From: Planctomycetota bacterium
GTDB lineage: Bacteria > Planctomycetota > J058
Length of the DNA stretch: 34,315 bases
Direction of reading: 5' to 3'
Assembly (NCBI GenBank): GCA_024711205.1
Contig: JANJTH010000939.1
Location: forward strand, 1 to 34,315
Numbering within the stretch: position 1 is the first letter of the stretch; each line of letters opens with the position of its first letter. A program made the translations under genes and the position numbers. The notes under the pieces were generated by a model. The model ran no database searches, was not told the DNA's origin, and saw nothing but the letters and a program-made list of their open reading frames with translations. This document shows positions 3,253 through 30,897 of this stretch, piece by piece.

Positions 3253-3431
3253 TCATCACCCCTCCCAGGTTTGTGGCTCGTCCAGGCCCGCCGCAGGCCT
3301 CCGGCGGGCCTCTCGTCCCGCTTTCTGACCCCATTCGCGCCCCTACCCGCGCACATCCCTGTACGCGCCGCGAGCCCGGGCCACTCACGGGTCCCGGGCT
3401 GCTCGGTCGGCGGAGGTCGGCCAGCGCATCG
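3253..3431 (+). repeat. Transposase-linked repeat unit, copy 1 (179 bp)
   Basis: Copy 1 is identical to 4323-4501 except for two substitutions. It starts with TCATCACCCCTCCCAGGTTT, has an internal TTCTGACCCCATTCGCG, and then a hairpin-forming segment in which AGCCCGGGCC faces GGGTCCCGGGCT. It ends GTCGGCCAGCGCATCG. The same unit lies 33 bp beyond the stop codon of the transposase gene, which links the repeat to that enzyme. No gene is seen in 3204-3862 apart from these repeats. Open frames through it are by-products of GC content. Confidence 0.9.
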
Positions 3432-3434
3432 CAC

Positions 3435-3611
3435 CATCACCCCTCCCAGGTTTGTGGCAGGGCCCGCCCGCCGGGGTCGCCCTGCTGCCCGAGTGCGCCG
3501 CCTTCTGACCCCATTCGCGCCCCTACCCGCGCACATCCCCGTACGCGCCGCGAGCCCGAACCCCTCGCGGGTCCCGGGCTGCTCGGTCGGCGGAGGTCGG
3601 CCAGCGCATCG
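3435..3611 (+). repeat. Transposase-linked repeat unit, copy 2 (diverged middle)
   Basis: It begins with the same CATCACCCCTCCCAGGTTTG block and ends with the same GTCGGCCAGCGCATCG block as copies 1 and 3, with TTCTGACCCCATTCGCG in the same place. Two internal segments differ: about 45 bases after the first block, and the hairpin arm, which here reads AGCCCGAACCCCTCGCGGGT. The pattern of conserved ends and changed interior suggests an older copy or recombination between units. Confidence 0.85.
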
Positions 3612-3743
3612 GCGAGCCCGAACCCCTCGCGGGTTCCAGGCTGCACGGTGCCATCACCCCTTCGGCGAGCCCGAACCCCTCGCGGGTTCCGGGCTGCGCG
3701 GTGCCATCACCCCTCCCAGGTTTGTGGCAGGGCCCGCCCGCCA
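3611..3743 (+). repeat. Two short tandem partial repeat units
   Basis: Two consecutive short units begin GGCGAGCCCGAACCCCTCGC at 3611 and 3664. Each contains a hairpin in which AGCCCGAACCC faces GGGTTCCGGGCT (or its variant). The first stops after CATCACCCC at 3660; the second runs into a full CATCACCCCTCCCAGGTTTG block at 3705 and 15 more bases shared with copy 2. They look like hairpin-only derivatives of the 178-bp unit. Confidence 0.75.
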
Positions 3744-4290: not shown

Positions 4291-4346
4291 CGTCATCACC
4301 CCTCCCAGGTTTGTGTCACCCGTCATCACCCCTCCCAGGTTTGTGG
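4291..4346 (+). repeat. Tandem duplication of the repeat terminus
   Basis: CGTCATCACCCCTCCCAGGT occurs twice with a period of 30 bp (4291 and 4321). The second copy begins repeat unit 3. A single extra terminus without a body is what repeated insertion or slippage at one target would leave. The rest of 4178-4534 holds only repeat unit 3 and short spacers. Confidence 0.8.
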
Positions 4347-4501
4347 CTCGTCCAGGCCCGCCGTAGGCCTCCAGCGGGCCTCTCGTCCCGCTTTCTGACC
4401 CCATTCGCGCCCCTACCCGCGCACATCCCTGTACGCGCCGCGAGCCCGGGCCACTCACGGGTCCCGGGCTGCTCGGTCGGCGGAGGTCGGCCAGCGCATC
4501 G
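4323..4501 (+). repeat. Transposase-linked repeat unit, copy 3, at the 3' end of the transposase gene
   Basis: This unit differs from copy 1 by only two bases in 179. It lies 33 bp beyond the stop codon of the minus-strand transposase gene, so the gene plus this repeat probably form the parental unit, while copies at 3253 and 3435 are gene-less derivatives. The near-identity of copies 1 and 3 indicates recent duplication. Confidence 0.9.
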
Positions 4502-4534: not shown

Positions 4535-5770
4535 TCAGGGCGGCGCGCGCGGGGGGCTGCCGTCTCCGCGGCCGCCGTCGTCGCCCGCTTCCGTGCTCTC
4601 CCCGGCCTTCGCGACGCGCGCCCCGTGGAAGCAGGGCAGGCCGAAGGTGCCATGCGGGAACACGACCTTGCGGTTGCCCTCGCGCCAGAGGCGGCGGGTC
4701 TCGTGGACCTCCTTGCGCCAGGCCTGCAGGCCCTGGATCGCCTCGATCCGGGCCTCTCGGTCCTTGCAGGCGATCCGCGGGTTCCGGGCGAAGGCAGGGA
4801 AGCAGTCGCCGACGCTCCGCCGCGGATCCTCGAGCAGGATCTTCTCGAGCCCGATCGGGGCCCGCAGGCCTGCGAGACGGCGCTCCTCGCGGGCCTTCGC
4901 GAGCCCCTCGTCGAGGAGACGCTGGAAGTGCGCCCGGACCTCGGCCAGGCTCATATGCTCGTAGCCGGGCGGCGGCACGGGCCGGACCACGACCCGGTCG
5001 GGCAGCTTCGAGCGGACCCGCTCGGGCCGCGGCGCCCGCTCCTTGCGCTTGGCGGCCCGGCGGCGCTTGGCCTTCCGCCGCTCGCGCGCCACGTCGAGCT
5101 GCTGCTGCCGCCGCTTCGACCGCCCGCGCCGCGCGTCCTGCTCGCGCTCCGCCCGGCGCCGACGCGCGTCCTCCTCGTGCGCCTCGCGCTCCTCGCGACG
5201 CAGCTCCTCGAGCCGGGCCTCCTCCGCGCTGATCGAGCCCTCGCGGACACGCTTCGGCCGCTTGCCCCCGAAGAACGCCGACTTCGGCTTGTCGAAGGCG
5301 AGCTCGGTCCCCCAGTGCTCGGGGAGGACCTTCACCCCGGGCCAGTCCTCGAGCCGGTCGACGATCCCGTCCTTCACGACCTGGACCCAGGTGTAGACGA
5401 GCTGCTGCTCGAGGGCGGCGCGATCGTGGACCTCGACGTTGCCGTAGCTGCCCTGCTGGAAGAGCGCGCCGCCGCGCCCGAAGCGGGCGTTGATCGCGCG
5501 CGCGCTGAGCCCGAAGAGGTGCTGGTGGAAGCGGGGCAGCGAGGAGTGCTCGCCCGCGCCGGGCAGGTCGGTGCAGTTCTCGTGCACGTGCGTCGTGTGC
5601 TGCATGAAGGCGTGGAGCCGCACGCCCGGGTTCTGCTCGGCCGCGCGGCCGAGCGCGTAGCCGAGGATCTGCACGACCTCCTCGTGCGGGTTGAGGTACG
5701 GGCGTCGCTCGACCGTCCGCCGCGTGACGGCGTGCGTCCTCCTCGACTCCAACCGGCGCGGCAGCGACAT
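4535..5770 (-). CDS. REP-associated tyrosine transposase (RAYT, Y1_Tnp/IS200-like superfamily)
   Basis: A 411-residue single-strand DNA transposase-like enzyme. ATG at 5770 is preferred over the upstream GTG at 5821 because the family fold begins at MSLPRR. Residues 1-140 are the Y1 domain. THVHENC gives the metal-binding HUH pair His61 and His63, and YTWVQVVKDGIV, with Tyr126 as the likely nucleophile, matches the YIHLNPVRAGLV-type helix of RAYTs. Residues about 165-265 are an extremely Arg/Lys/Glu-rich, probably helical region, unusual for RAYTs, which are often 150-250 residues. The C-terminal part carries IQGLQAWRKEVHETRRLW and VVFPHGTF, also kept in the remnant at 2378, so it is probably functional. 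It is transcribed toward the repeat array. Confidence 0.85.
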   Translation of the reverse strand: MSLPRRLESRRTHAVTRRTVERRPYLNPHEEVVQILGYALGRAAEQNPGVRLHAFMQHTTHVHENCTDLPGAGEHSSLPRFHQHLFGLSARAINARFGRGGALFQQGSYGNVEVHDRAALEQQLVYTWVQVVKDGIVDRLEDWPGVKVLPEHWGTELAFDKPKSAFFGGKRPKRVREGSISAEEARLEELRREEREAHEEDARRRRAEREQDARRGRSKRRQQQLDVARERRKAKRRRAAKRKERAPRPERVRSKLPDRVVVRPVPPPGYEHMSLAEVRAHFQRLLDEGLAKAREERRLAGLRAPIGLEKILLEDPRRSVGDCFPAFARNPRIACKDREARIEAIQGLQAWRKEVHETRRLWREGNRKVVFPHGTFGLPCFHGARVAKAGESTEAGDDGGRGDGSPPRAPP

Positions 5771-5967
5771 GGCAGGACCCGGCAGGCGCACGGCGTGCCG
5801 GGCGCGCGCCCCCGCGGCCACGGGACTTGACCTCGGCCCGTGCGGACGTCGCCCGCTCCGTGGCTACCGGACGAGCAAGTCCTTCCCTCCGACCTCCACG
5901 ACGAGACGCAGCGCCTCACGGGGCTCGGGTCGCAGATGAGGCCGGCGGGCCGTCGGCGTCGCGCGCG

Positions 5968-24092: not shown

Positions 24093-24944
24093 GTGCTGCA
24101 GCGGACCGATCGGGCGAGCCTCAAGAGCACCCGCGAGCTCGAGCGCATGCGCGTGGCCGGCCGCATGGTGGCCGAGGTCCACGCCCTCATGCGGCAGATG
24201 GTCAAGCCCGGGGTCACGACCGGCGACCTCAACGAGGCCGCGGGCGCGAAGATCCGCGAGCTGGGGGGCACGGCGTCCTTCTTCGGCTACGTCGTCGGCC
24301 GCAACGCCTACCCGGCGAACATCTGCGTGTCGATCGACGAGGAGGTCGTGCACGGGATCCCCGGCCGCTGCCAGTACCGGGGCCGGATGACCCCCGACCG
24401 GACCCTCGAGGCCGGGCAGGTCGTGTCGATCGACTGCGGCGCGATCTACCAGGGCTACCACGGGGACTCCGCGGTGACGCTCCCGGTGGGCGAGATCGCC
24501 CCCGACGTGGCCGAGCTCCTCGCGGTGTGCCGCGACGCCTTGTGGGCCGGCATCCGGGCCGTCCAGCCGGGGGCGAAGGTCTCCGATGTGGCGCGGGCGA
24601 TCGAGGCGGCGATCCGCGGCCGCGAGAAGGACGGCCTGCGCTACGGGATCGTCGAGGAGTACGTCGGGCACGGGATCGGGCAGCGCCTCCACGAGCCGCC
24701 GCAGGTCCCGAACTACTTCAACGCGTCGATGCTCCGCAACGACGTCGTGTTCAAGCCCGGCCTCGTGGTCGCGATCGAGCCCATGGTGAATCTGGGCACG
24801 AACAAGACGCGCACGCTCGCGGACGGCTGGACCGTCGTGACCCGCGACAAGAAGGCCTCGGCCCACTTCGAGCACACGGTCGCCTGCACGGCCGACGGCT
24901 TCGAGGTCCTGACGGTCCGCGAGGACGGCTCCGCGACCCATTGA
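24093..24944 (+). CDS. map: Methionine aminopeptidase, type I
   Basis: A 283-residue enzyme that removes the initiator methionine from new proteins. The dinuclear metal site is complete: Asp114 in SIDCGA, Asp125 in YHGDSA, His193 in VGHGIG, Glu229 in AIEPM and Glu260 in FEHTV, with the 11-residue spacing between the two Asp usual for the family. GTG start with GAGGAGG, 42 bases after secY. No N-terminal zinc-finger or SH3 extension is present. The stop codon overlaps the first bases of a long perfect hairpin, and none of the usual downstream genes (infA, rpmJ, rpsM) follows. Confidence 0.97.
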   Translation: MLQRTDRASLKSTRELERMRVAGRMVAEVHALMRQMVKPGVTTGDLNEAAGAKIRELGGTASFFGYVVGRNAYPANICVSIDEEVVHGIPGRCQYRGRMTPDRTLEAGQVVSIDCGAIYQGYHGDSAVTLPVGEIAPDVAELLAVCRDALWAGIRAVQPGAKVSDVARAIEAAIRGREKDGLRYGIVEEYVGHGIGQRLHEPPQVPNYFNASMLRNDVVFKPGLVVAIEPMVNLGTNKTRTLADGWTVVTRDKKASAHFEHTVACTADGFEVLTVREDGSATH

Positions 24945-24993
24945 GGGCTCTTGCGCGGGGCGCGCCTTTGGCGCGCCCCGCGCAAGAGCCCTC
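24943..24993 (+). terminator. Perfect 24-bp hairpin starting in the map stop codon
   Basis: The left arm 24943-24966 starts with the GA of TGA and reads GAGGGCTCTTGCGCGGGG onward. The loop is TTT (24967-24969). The right arm 24970-24993 is its exact reverse complement. There is no T-tract after it. As a transcript end it would rely on the stem alone; as DNA it is a 51-bp perfect palindrome with a 3-base centre. Confidence 0.7.
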
Positions 24994-25175
24994 CATGGGA
25001 TGGTCTCCGCTGAGACGCGGGCGTCTTGCGGCATCGAGGGCGCCAGGCGCGTCGAGGCCTCCGGTTCGTCATCGGCTTGCAAGAGCGGGGCCGCTCGTAG
25101 CCCGTATGGCGCGCGGGCGGTATGCTGGCGGGAATTCCGGCGGCGCCTCGCGGCGCCCCACGACGGAGCACCGCG

Positions 25176-26078: not shown

Positions 26079-26275
26079 GGATTCAGGGGATCGGCCCGCC
26101 CATGGCCCGCTCGGTCGCGGCTGCCCGAGCGTCGGGGTGGGCTCGCCTGCGAGGGGCCCGGTCCACCGAGGGTGGGCCCGGTCCATCGAGGCCACGCGGC
26201 TCCCCGTGGTGCGCTGATCAATCCGAGGGGCAGCGGCGCCCTCGCTGATCGACCGCTGGCCCCATCCCCATCTGG

Positions 26276-26316
26276 AATCGAGGGGTATCGCGGCGAAGCC
26301 GCGATACCCCTCGATT
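26276..26316 (-). terminator. Perfect 19-bp hairpin abutting the stop of the caspase-like gene
   Basis: Arms 26276-26294 and 26298-26316 are exact reverse complements (AATCGAGGGGTATCGCGGC) with the loop GAA. The right arm touches the minus-strand stop codon at 26317. It probably ends that gene's transcript and may also stop transcription from the plus-strand gene ending at 26078. The sequence between 26079 and 26275 holds an 18-base near-tandem repeat (GGGCCCGGTCCACCGAGG and GGGCCCGGTCCATCGAGG) and no gene. Confidence 0.65.
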
Positions 26317-27213
26317 TCACAGCCAGAAGCGGCCGCCGCGGTAGATGACGGGGGTGTAGGAGATCGGTCGCTCGGCGCGCCAATGCTGGACGTGGTGGAG
26401 GAGGTTCGTCCAGAACCCGCCGGCGCGGGGGAGCTCGACCCGCGAGAGGTCGAGCACGCGGGCGGGGTCGTTCGCGTAGAGCTCGAGGAAGGCCGCGACG
26501 ATCGCCGTGGTGCCCGCGGGCTCGTGGGGCGTCGTGGTGGTGCCGCGCGGACAGGCCGCGATCACGACGCCGTCGAGGTCGCCGCGGGCCGCGGCCGCCT
26601 CGGCGAAGACGCCGGACTCGCAGGCGTTGATGAGCACGGCCTTCGAGCCGGCGAGCCGCGCCAGGGCGTCGAGCAGGGTCGCCGGGTCGAGCGTCGAGGC
26701 GGCGGGCATGACGAGGCGCCCGGGGGCGATCCGCATCGAGCGCGTCCGCAGGCCGCGGGCGTCGCCCTCGCCGGAGTAGGCGAGGAAGGTCCGCGTCTCG
26801 GCGTCGGACACGGTCGCGAGCCGGTCGAGCACTGCGAGCGCGGTCTCGACGCCGACCTGCCCCAGGTCGAGCCGGTAGACGTCGTAGCCCTTGGCGAGGA
26901 GCAGCCGCTCGAGCTGCGCCACGTCGCCGGCGACCCAGGGGTCCTCGAGCGGGCGGCCGCGCTGGAGGTCGTCGGGCGTCGCGACGAGCCGCCCGTCGCG
27001 GGGGGGCTCGAACACGCGGCCGCTCATCAGCAGCGCGTAGCGGTTCGTGGGCGCGCGGCGGGGCGGCGCGTAGTCGAGGTCGACGACCTCGAGGGCCACC
27101 GCGTCGCCGGCGGGCGGGAGCGGGCCGATCGGGAGGGTGACGGCGCAGCCGCTCGAGGCGAGGGTCGCGGCGAGGATGGCGGGCAGGAGGAGGTCGAGGC
27201 GGCGGTGGGTCAC
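26317..27213 (-). CDS. Caspase-fold lipoprotein lacking the catalytic His
   Basis: A 298-residue protein from GTG at 27213; the frame is open to 27282, but the signal peptide begins here. THRRLDLLLPAILAATLASS precedes GC, giving a plausible lipobox with Cys23. The C-terminal two-thirds look like a caspase/C13-type alpha-beta fold: RYALLMSG, a helix with LERLLLAKGYDVYRLDL, FLAYSGEGDARG and VLINACESGVFAEAA. Cys198 sits where the nucleophile should be. The catalytic dyad His (normally YSGHG) is Glu149. The 49-residue spacing fits. It may be a non-peptidase relative, or the His may come from elsewhere. Location is probably the outer periplasmic side of a membrane. Confidence 0.7.
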   Translation of the reverse strand: MTHRRLDLLLPAILAATLASSGCAVTLPIGPLPPAGDAVALEVVDLDYAPPRRAPTNRYALLMSGRVFEPPRDGRLVATPDDLQRGRPLEDPWVAGDVAQLERLLLAKGYDVYRLDLGQVGVETALAVLDRLATVSDAETRTFLAYSGEGDARGLRTRSMRIAPGRLVMPAASTLDPATLLDALARLAGSKAVLINACESGVFAEAAAARGDLDGVVIAACPRGTTTTPHEPAGTTAIVAAFLELYANDPARVLDLSRVELPRAGGFWTNLLHHVQHWRAERPISYTPVIYRGGRFWL

Positions 27214-29460: not shown

Positions 29461-30549
29461 ATGACCGCGCCCGCCCGCCCCGTCGCCCTCGCGTCGCACC
29501 GCCGCCTCGGCCGGAGCGGGCTGCGCGTCTCGCCGATCTGCCTCGGCGCGGGGACGTTCGGCCAGGCCTGGGGCCCCGGCTGGCAGACCGAGCGCGAGAC
29601 GGCCCGCGCGCTCCTGAACGGCTACCTCGACGCGGGCGGCAACTTCGTCGACACGGCGGACGGCTACCACAAGGGCGAGAGCGAGGCCTGGCTCGGCGAG
29701 CTCCTGCGCGAGCGCGGCGACCGCGACCGCGTCGTGCTCGCGACGAAGTTCTCGTTCGGGACGCGCGAGGGCGACCCGAACGCCGGCGGCAACGGGCGCA
29801 AGCACATCGTCGCCGCCTGCGAGGCCTCGCTCCGCCGGCTCGGCACCGACTACGTCGACCTGTACTGGCTCCACTGCTGGGACAGGACGACCCCGGTCGA
29901 CGAGGTCATGGCGACGCTCGACCGGCTCGTGCAGCAGGGCAAGGTCCGCCACGTCGGCATGAGCAACGTCCCGGGCTGGTACCTCGGGCGCGCCCAGACC
30001 CTCGCGCAGTGGCGCGGCTGGGAGCCGGTCGCCGCGCTCCAGCTCGAGTACTCGCTGATCACCCGCGAGGTCGAGCTCGAGTACGCGTCCGCCGCCGAGT
30101 GGCTCGGGGTCGGCCTGTGCCCGTGGAGCCCGCTCGCCAACGGCCTCCTCACGGGGAAGTACCGCCCGGGCCCCGACGGGAAGCTCGAGGGCGACGGGCG
30201 CCTCGGCCAGGGCGGCTTCGCCACCGGGGTCAACTCGGACCTGCGCGAGCGCAACGCGCGGATCGTCGCCGCCGTCCTCGAGGTGGCCGCGGAGTCCGGG
30301 CTGACCCCGGCCCAGGTCGCGATCCAGTGGGTCACGAACCGCCCCGGCGTCTGCTCGACGACGATCGGCGCGACGAGGCCGTCCCAGCTCCAGGACAACC
30401 TCGCCGCGCTCGACCGCCCGCTCCCGCAGGCCGCGCTCGCGCGCCTCGACGAGGTCAGCGCGCCCGCGCTCCAGTACCCCGCCGGGTTCTTCACGCCGGC
30501 CATGCAGGAGGTCGTCCACAACGGTCCGCCCCCTCAGGTCGTCGTCTAG
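29461..30549 (+). CDS. Aldo/keto reductase
   Basis: A 362-residue NAD(P)H-dependent oxidoreductase with the full catalytic tetrad: Asp64 and Tyr69 (NFVDTADGYHKGES), Lys96 (LATKFSF) and His138 (LYWLHCWD). The start RRLGRSGLRVSPICLGAGTF and the cofactor-binding end (TTIGATRPSQLQDNLAAL) place it with the YajO/Tas-like or voltage-channel-beta-like subfamily. ATG has GAGGAG upstream; the frame is open far upstream by GC bias only. A TATGCT-like CATGCT at 29416 may be a promoter. Its stop codon is the first base pair of a 160-bp foldback element. Confidence 0.92.
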   Translation: MTAPARPVALASHRRLGRSGLRVSPICLGAGTFGQAWGPGWQTERETARALLNGYLDAGGNFVDTADGYHKGESEAWLGELLRERGDRDRVVLATKFSFGTREGDPNAGGNGRKHIVAACEASLRRLGTDYVDLYWLHCWDRTTPVDEVMATLDRLVQQGKVRHVGMSNVPGWYLGRAQTLAQWRGWEPVAALQLEYSLITREVELEYASAAEWLGVGLCPWSPLANGLLTGKYRPGPDGKLEGDGRLGQGGFATGVNSDLRERNARIVAAVLEVAAESGLTPAQVAIQWVTNRPGVCSTTIGATRPSQLQDNLAALDRPLPQAALARLDEVSAPALQYPAGFFTPAMQEVVHNGPPPQVVV

Positions 30550-30707
30550 TGTCCCTCGCCAGAAGTCCACGCGCCAAGTCCGGGCCCTCGTCGCCGCTGG
30601 CTGCGTTGCTCGTCGGCCATCATGCGCCGCATGGGTGGCCTCCTCGCGCCTTGCCAGCGGCGACCATGCCTCCGGACTTCGCTGCGGGGCTCCTGGCTCG
30701 GGACACT
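30548..30707. repeat. 160-bp foldback element starting in the reductase stop codon
   Basis: The whole stretch folds on itself. AGTGTCCC (30548-30555) pairs with GGGACACT (30700-30707). GCCAG in the left arm pairs with CTGGC in the right. AAGTCCGG (30576-30583) pairs with CCGGACTT (30672-30679). GTCGCCGCTGGC (30590-30601) pairs with GCCAGCGGCGAC (30653-30664). CATGCG-C-CGCATG forms the tip. Arms are about 70 percent complementary overall. It may be a terminator, a small RNA, or a MITE-like remnant. The rest of 30550-30897 shows no gene. Confidence 0.65.
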
Positions 30708-30897
30708 CGCCGCCCGGCGCAGGGGCCCCTCGCTTCGCGCGTCCGCGCGGGCGCCTCGGCGCGTCGAGCTCGGCCCAGGAGGTCTCGCCGCCCGACGGTC
30801 CGCGCCCGCGACCCCAGGCCCGGTGTGGAGCCTCACGGCCTCGGACGAGAGGTGAGGCGGCGCCCGCGCCGCGCGGCGCGGCGCGGGGAGGACCCGG

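Follow-up and report, generated by a model that had tools for sequence, protein, structure and literature searches.

What is the long foldback that begins at the very stop codon of an aldo/keto reductase gene in a Planctomycetota genome, and how did it come to lie there? The locus belongs to contig JANJTH010000939.1 (assembly GCA_024711205.1), and the window analysed here is the whole stretch of 34,315 nucleotides. A first-pass annotation, made from the letters alone, had described at 30548-30707 a 160-bp foldback of nested inverted repeats and had named a miniature inverted-repeat transposable element (MITE), a structured RNA or a transcript stabiliser as possible explanations. We consider the foldback to be a non-autonomous transposable element, most likely a MITE of the IS630 (Tc1/mariner) type, with a probability of roughly 0.7. 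Its copies, its edges, its positions at stop codons and a comparison at the secA gene of another lineage were observed directly, and the transposase family is deduced from the target and end sequences.

The foldback is real. On the plus strand, the RNA fold of 30547-30708 is a single continuous imperfect hairpin of -101.5 kcal/mol, against a mean of -69.6 for shuffled sequences (z -8.9; none of 200 shuffles equally good), and the minus strand gives -111.8 kcal/mol (z -9.8; again 0/200). The paired blocks follow one another within one long imperfect hairpin in the order first described, and the boundaries originally given proved right to within two bases of those adopted here, 30549-30706. The edges were read from the alignment of copies from the own genome: the left one is CTAG (30546-30549) and the right one a decayed form of it, CTCG (30706-30709), the family form of the ends being C-TA-GTGTCCC...GGGACAC-TA-G. 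The locus is composed of the following parts:

29461-30549, plus strand: apparently full-length aldo/keto reductase gene; its stop codon forms the element's left edge (phmmer against solved structures)
30546-30549, no strand: left target site CTAG, comprising the presumed target duplication TA (30547-30548) and the aldo/keto reductase stop TAG (30547-30549)
30549-30706, no strand: palindromic miniature element, MITE-like, 158 bp as a TA-flanked unit (aligned copies with sharp edges, own-genome copies, fold)
30549-30569, plus strand: left terminal inverted repeat GTGTCCCTCGCCAGAAGTCCA (copy alignment, fold)
30583-30675, plus strand: inner core common to several phyla, matched by covariance model R1 (pattern and model matches)
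30603-30616, plus strand: conserved core motif GCGTTGCTCGTCGG, in the inner core
30640-30655, plus strand: conserved core motif CTCCTCGCGCCTTGCC, in the inner core
30687-30706, minus strand: right terminal inverted repeat (GGGCTCCTGGCTCGGGACAC on the plus strand; copy alignment, fold)
30706-30709, no strand: right target site, decayed to CTCG (CTAG in 6/10 copies with the right edge present)

Residues 12-342 of the 362 of the reductase align to 22-348 of the 363 of 7utf_A, and because of this near end-to-end alignment with a solved homologue the gene does not look truncated.

A search of the own genome (G000; 962 contigs, 86% complete, G+C roughly 75%) with a 261-base query returned 30 matches. 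Twelve of these, the window copy included, represent the window subfamily in query orientation, the other 11 being 89-99% identical; six form a sister subfamily, similar only in the core (77-79%); and the remaining 12 are the same places rematched through the other strand of the palindrome. Further genomic copies, whose absence the first-pass annotation had named as grounds for doubt, are therefore present. The 12 aligned copies of the window subfamily have common sharp edges and unrelated flanks. Nine retain the left flank, with CTAG in eight and CTGG in one, the others ending at contig ends; ten retain the right flank, with CTAG in six and one base altered in four, including the window copy. 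Pairwise identity among the eight full-length copies is 91.5-99.4% (28 pairs). Exact CTAGTGTCCC sites occur 19 times in the own genome, and 18 of them are ends of these elements; the 19th starts a different sequence with the first 15 bases in common, and a reversed control pattern gave one site. The own-genome family thus has the general features of MITEs, being short, bounded by terminal inverted repeats and present in multiple dispersed, sharp-edged copies.

Evidence for insertion comes from the sphingomonads. In Sphingomonas sp. CFBP 13720 a copy (L345) begins inside the stop codon of secA. A search of 61 genomes with a query of five joined flanks matched part of this query in 44 (that of CFBP 13720 included), and in all 19 relatives fetched the secA gene, there ending in TAA or TGA, stops within one residue of this position and has no core within 400 bases of its end on either strand. 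This comparison of occupied and unoccupied sites shows insertion, the relatives being other species, which leaves the exact duplicated bases unproven. The edges of sphingomonad copies are unequal on the two sides (CTAG/CTAA in L345, TTAG/CTAA in L130 and TTAG/CTAG in L170), and such edges fit a duplication of TA inside YTAR. Together with the dispersed sharp-edged copies, the terminal inverted repeats and the CTAG/TA target, the secA comparison bears out the MITE among the explanations initially proposed.

A transposase supplied in trans probably acts on the terminal inverted repeats, and insertion at the TA of CTAG would duplicate the TA. As the first base of the element is G, insertion into a TAG stop would re-form TA plus G at both edges; thus the stop codon would be restored and the upstream gene left intact, now ending in a long hairpin, which may affect the mRNA. 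An end was counted as a coding stop where the frame was open for at least 60 codons and its third-position G+C was both the highest and at least 0.93. By this measure, a coding stop coincides with an intact CTAG end in 13 of the 18 own-genome elements, against 11/20 of the other (background) CTAG sites in the same own-genome sequence (Fisher p 0.33), or 7/15 once five sites bearing another repeat's end are removed (Fisher p 0.17). Since stops are almost as frequent among the background CTAG sites, CTAG targeting suffices to explain the siting, and strict targeting of stop codons was set aside. CTAG is depleted in this sequence: base composition predicts 225 sites, and 103.6 kb contain 37, element ends counted. 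Of the CTAG sites examined, roughly half are TAG stops. Seven own-genome elements (C704 among them) have one decayed CTAG end, and their intact end is a coding stop in four and not clearly coding in three. In the Kofleriaceae, only 4/13 copies have a coding stop at the same level of third-position G+C. In genome G002 (L049), an element lies between two convergent frames of coding composition, each ending at an element TAG.

The inner core extends far beyond this genome. A DNA search of 39 genomes (the own genome and 38 relatives, mostly from other families of the phylum) matched ten, two of them weakly and with poor alignment (G014 and G018). A covariance model made from 39 core sequences matched 12/39 genomes, including all six other genomes of the family; it backs G014 and not G018, and its matches in G008 (one) and G033 (three) are only near the limit. 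In a species-level genome collection, a two-motif pattern of 30 fixed bases found at least 115 stretches. Titles among the 80 matches listed include Planctomycetota, Acidobacteria, Verrucomicrobiota, Myxococcota (Kofleriaceae), Actinomycetota, Proteobacteria (Sphingomonas, Ectothiorhodospiraceae), Desulfobacterales, Bacteroidota and one record titled Bacillus, which together represent about eight phyla. Nineteen genomes from pattern loci, chosen for having the pattern, hold from 2 to at least 73 model matches each, two of them at least 73. Contamination of metagenome bins alone does not explain this spread, since several titles are isolates (Sphingomonas). The record titled Bacillus sp. 2B10 (L130, L136, L142) carries the sphingomonad subfamily, and its label may be wrong.

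For alignment A1, 153 sequences were thinned to 40, of which 39 were aligned; L139, which lacks the outer stem, had been dropped beforehand. The outer stem varies between lineages and stays paired, all five outer pairs having changed on both sides, with two-sided changes in 11-17 of the 39 sequences per pair. Its covariation scores 0.292, whereas shuffling gives a mean of 0.080 (0/500) and sliding the partners 0.034-0.100, for a structure that was derived from the same alignment and is favoured by it. The check for covariance across relatives advised at the outset thus had a strongly positive outcome for the outer stem. This does not show an RNA role, because MITE inverted repeats would covary in any case. 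Variation in the core motifs across phyla is slight, in part by construction, as most rows of the alignment were fetched with the pattern; independent evidence of core conservation is given by BLAST and covariance-model matches with diverged cores.

The ends behave differently. They read GTGTCCC in the own genome, GTGGTCC in G004 and G006, GAGGCCC in G002, GAGCGGTTTCC in sphingomonads, and are AGGGCYCG-like in Kofleriaceae, Desulfobacterales and others. In G051, alike ends flank both the core element and a different palindrome of 180-204 bp without the core; this second interior was seen at L299, L301-L303, L305 and L295. Ends and interior therefore appear exchangeable, and the alike ends on two G051 interiors are as would be expected if the ends drive mobility. 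It is conceivable, if rather doubtful, that the inner core functions as a module of its own (a recognised hairpin or a structured RNA or DNA motif) which different transposon ends have captured again and again, so carrying it into many phyla; stop codons would then be recurrent safe landing sites, and selection would keep the core, not the ends.

Which transposase could move such an element? Scanning the fetched loci generically for inverted repeats anchored at TA yielded 39 pairs; many were unrelated repeats, and the scan pointed to IS630 ends. DDE_3 (IS630-type) matches occur at three loci of the own genome and in 12/24 other core-positive genomes, many of these assemblies being incomplete. 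A TA-anchored end pair was found in 22 of the 32 IS630-type loci, in a follow-up that assumed the match to start near base 1501 and so possibly missed loci cut by a contig end. Six pairs score at least 16/24, and in all six (for L317 in its outer pair) the TA of either end is preceded by C and followed by G (CTA/G), the TA itself being a requirement of the search. Eleven consecutive bases are common to an IS630 end of G040 and the element end of G004 (GTGGTCCGTCA), and another eleven to an IS630 end of G043 and the element ends of other sphingomonads (the GAGCGGTTTCC given above). Five of the 16 listed element ends reach 11/14 matches with some IS630 end, against 9/7350 in a shuffle control. 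Within G004, one IS630 locus has the first 7 bases in common with the element of that genome, the 11-base matches being found only between genomes. A preference of IS630 for the TA in 5'-CTAG-3' is the title of a paper by Tenzen and Ohtsubo from 1991, cited in PMC2170065, and the abstract of the latter reports a TA duplication for ISY100. Mobilisation by an IS630-type enzyme is favoured because of the CTA/G ends, the 11-base end matches and the published CTAG preference. In G002 (L336, near 2109), a core-family-like end directly abuts the end of an IS630-type element, as though the two shared one CTAG.

Several results weigh against IS630-type mobilisation. Half of the other core-bearing genomes (12/24) have no DDE_3 match, and the excess of elements at stops over background CTAG sites is not significant in either comparison. 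The IS630 loci with 11-base matches (L321, L322) score only 13/24 on their own end pairs, and the element and IS630 ends compared were hand-picked, which makes the matches suggestive and no formal test. The paired-end search of the own genome found no longer, autonomous partner with these ends; its three DDE_3 loci have no CTAG and no convincing matching ends; a scan of the IS630 loci for the listed MITE ends yielded nothing beyond weak or adjacent matches; and a plasmid search with two queries gave no match. An ordinary MITE should also have ends better conserved than its interior, and here the interior is common to phyla and the ends differ. Nor did paired ends reveal an autonomous partner in Kofleriaceae G039, where 12 of the 13 paired copies measure 159-160 bp and one 128 bp, and wider-spaced end pairs in G051 enclosed no demonstrated transposon.

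A four-base YTAR duplication, as in IS5-type MITEs, is less likely than one of TA. An IS5-type MITE resembling MITEPsy1 of Pseudomonas syringae is the main alternative, with edges of the expected YTAR form; we hold it to be unlikely, since the unequal edge tetranucleotides of L345, L130 and L170 fit TA better unless mutated, and it is IS630-type ends and sites that match, no search for IS5-type transposases having been made. Still more improbable is that the element is retained because it serves as a terminator, a 3' mRNA stabiliser or another structured RNA, and was spread by selection rather than by selfish transposition. The very stable fold on both strands, the siting immediately at stop codons, and the conserved inner core with a covarying outer stem across phyla would all suit such a role, but the sharp edges of the insertions and the dispersed, nearly identical copies point to recent mobility, Rfam at its gathering threshold gave 0 matches in the window, MITE inverted repeats covary without RNA function, and core orientation relative to the gene has no clear bias (8 one way and 5 the other, n=13 elements).

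Equally improbable is an element like a repetitive extragenic palindrome (REP), mobilised through recognition of its core hairpin by a REP-associated tyrosine transposase (RAYT). The TT bulge of this hairpin is reminiscent of the E. coli REP, and the core is the conserved part, as expected of a hairpin substrate. The window holds a weakly RAYT-like gene (NF047646, E 3.9e-6, 26.8 bits, with a cut-off of 80 bits), which has relatives elsewhere in the own genome (21 matches including itself); PF01797 has no match there. However, RAYT matches at E 0.001 occur in 24/31 core-positive and 18/27 core-negative genomes, that is, without association, and in only 16/58 genomes do they exceed the family's cut-off. 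The seven of 31 core-positive genomes without a match at E 0.001 include the L105 genome, with 45 core matches and a 6.1-Mb chromosome record. The core is absent from all 40 RAYT loci examined, 24 of them from core-positive genomes, and two other own-genome RAYT-like loci carry a different repeat array, the same as beside the window copy. The two-sided CTAG ends and the 158 bp also do not match a REP unit (20-40 bp, with a one-sided GTAG or CGTC tag). With neither co-occurrence nor adjacency, RAYT mobilisation was rejected. The RAYT-like gene itself (window 4535-5821, minus strand) has four other own-genome relatives that are 91-93% identical over long stretches, and the array beside it (3253-3740 and 4323-4501) recurs next to two other copies (L027, L030); because of this recurrence, gene and array look like a REPtron-style pair.

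Other repeats were seen during the analysis. A further CTAG-ended repeat of the own genome, beginning CTAGAGGCCCGGCCGGAAACGCC and similar to the element ends of G002, occurs at L010:161-212 and L024:679-730 and 2120-2171; its first ten bases are present at five background CTAG sites, four of which are also coding stops. Two short inverted repeats lie in the window at 24937-24999 and 26258-26334, with arms of 30 and 37 bases, 97% and 78% complementary, around a 3-base loop, and neither has another copy in the own-genome sequence examined.

Among known systems, the RUP of Streptococcus pneumoniae, a 107-bp element that inserts at TA with a proposed IS630-type mobilisation in trans (PMC2229807), is, like other IS630-derived MITEs, alike in being short, non-autonomous and inserted at TA; it differs from the 158-bp element in length, the passages on RUP describe neither a cross-phylum core nor siting at stops, and no cognate insertion sequence for the element here was found in the own genome. 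MITEPsy1, as described (PMC3189936), has 100 bp, inserts after CTAG or YTAA with a four-base duplication and has ISPsy2-like ends; the comparison, by description only, gives a likeness as a miniature element at CTAG/YTAA and differences in size, duplication and ends. GTAG REPs are likewise repetitive palindromes near gene ends, and their termini often give flanking open reading frames a TAG stop (PMC3733652), but they are of 20-40 bp with a tag at one end, whereas the present element has 158 bp, a two-sided CTAG and no RAYT association. The CGTC-tagged REPs described in the same source are small palindromes of several phyla with no known transposase; their one-sided CGTC tag, stems of 8-9 bp and, mostly, CCA tail make size and ends a misfit.

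The searches made, which covered open-access papers, turned up no printed description of the element family; the core motifs, searched as text, gave five papers whose titles all concern osteoclasts or bone loss. That REP termini can provide a TAG stop has been described before (PMC3733652). The element is best regarded as widely distributed and most likely an IS630-type MITE, notable for its cross-phylum core with exchanged ends and for a first base that restores the stop. By default it is seen as a selfish element, harmless where inserted. It joins three directly testable things: a CTAG target, the scarcity of this target outside stops in GC-rich genomes, and a stop preserved by the first base of the element. 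A core common to phyla with exchanged ends is unexpected for MITEs, and raises the question of what recognises or keeps the core.
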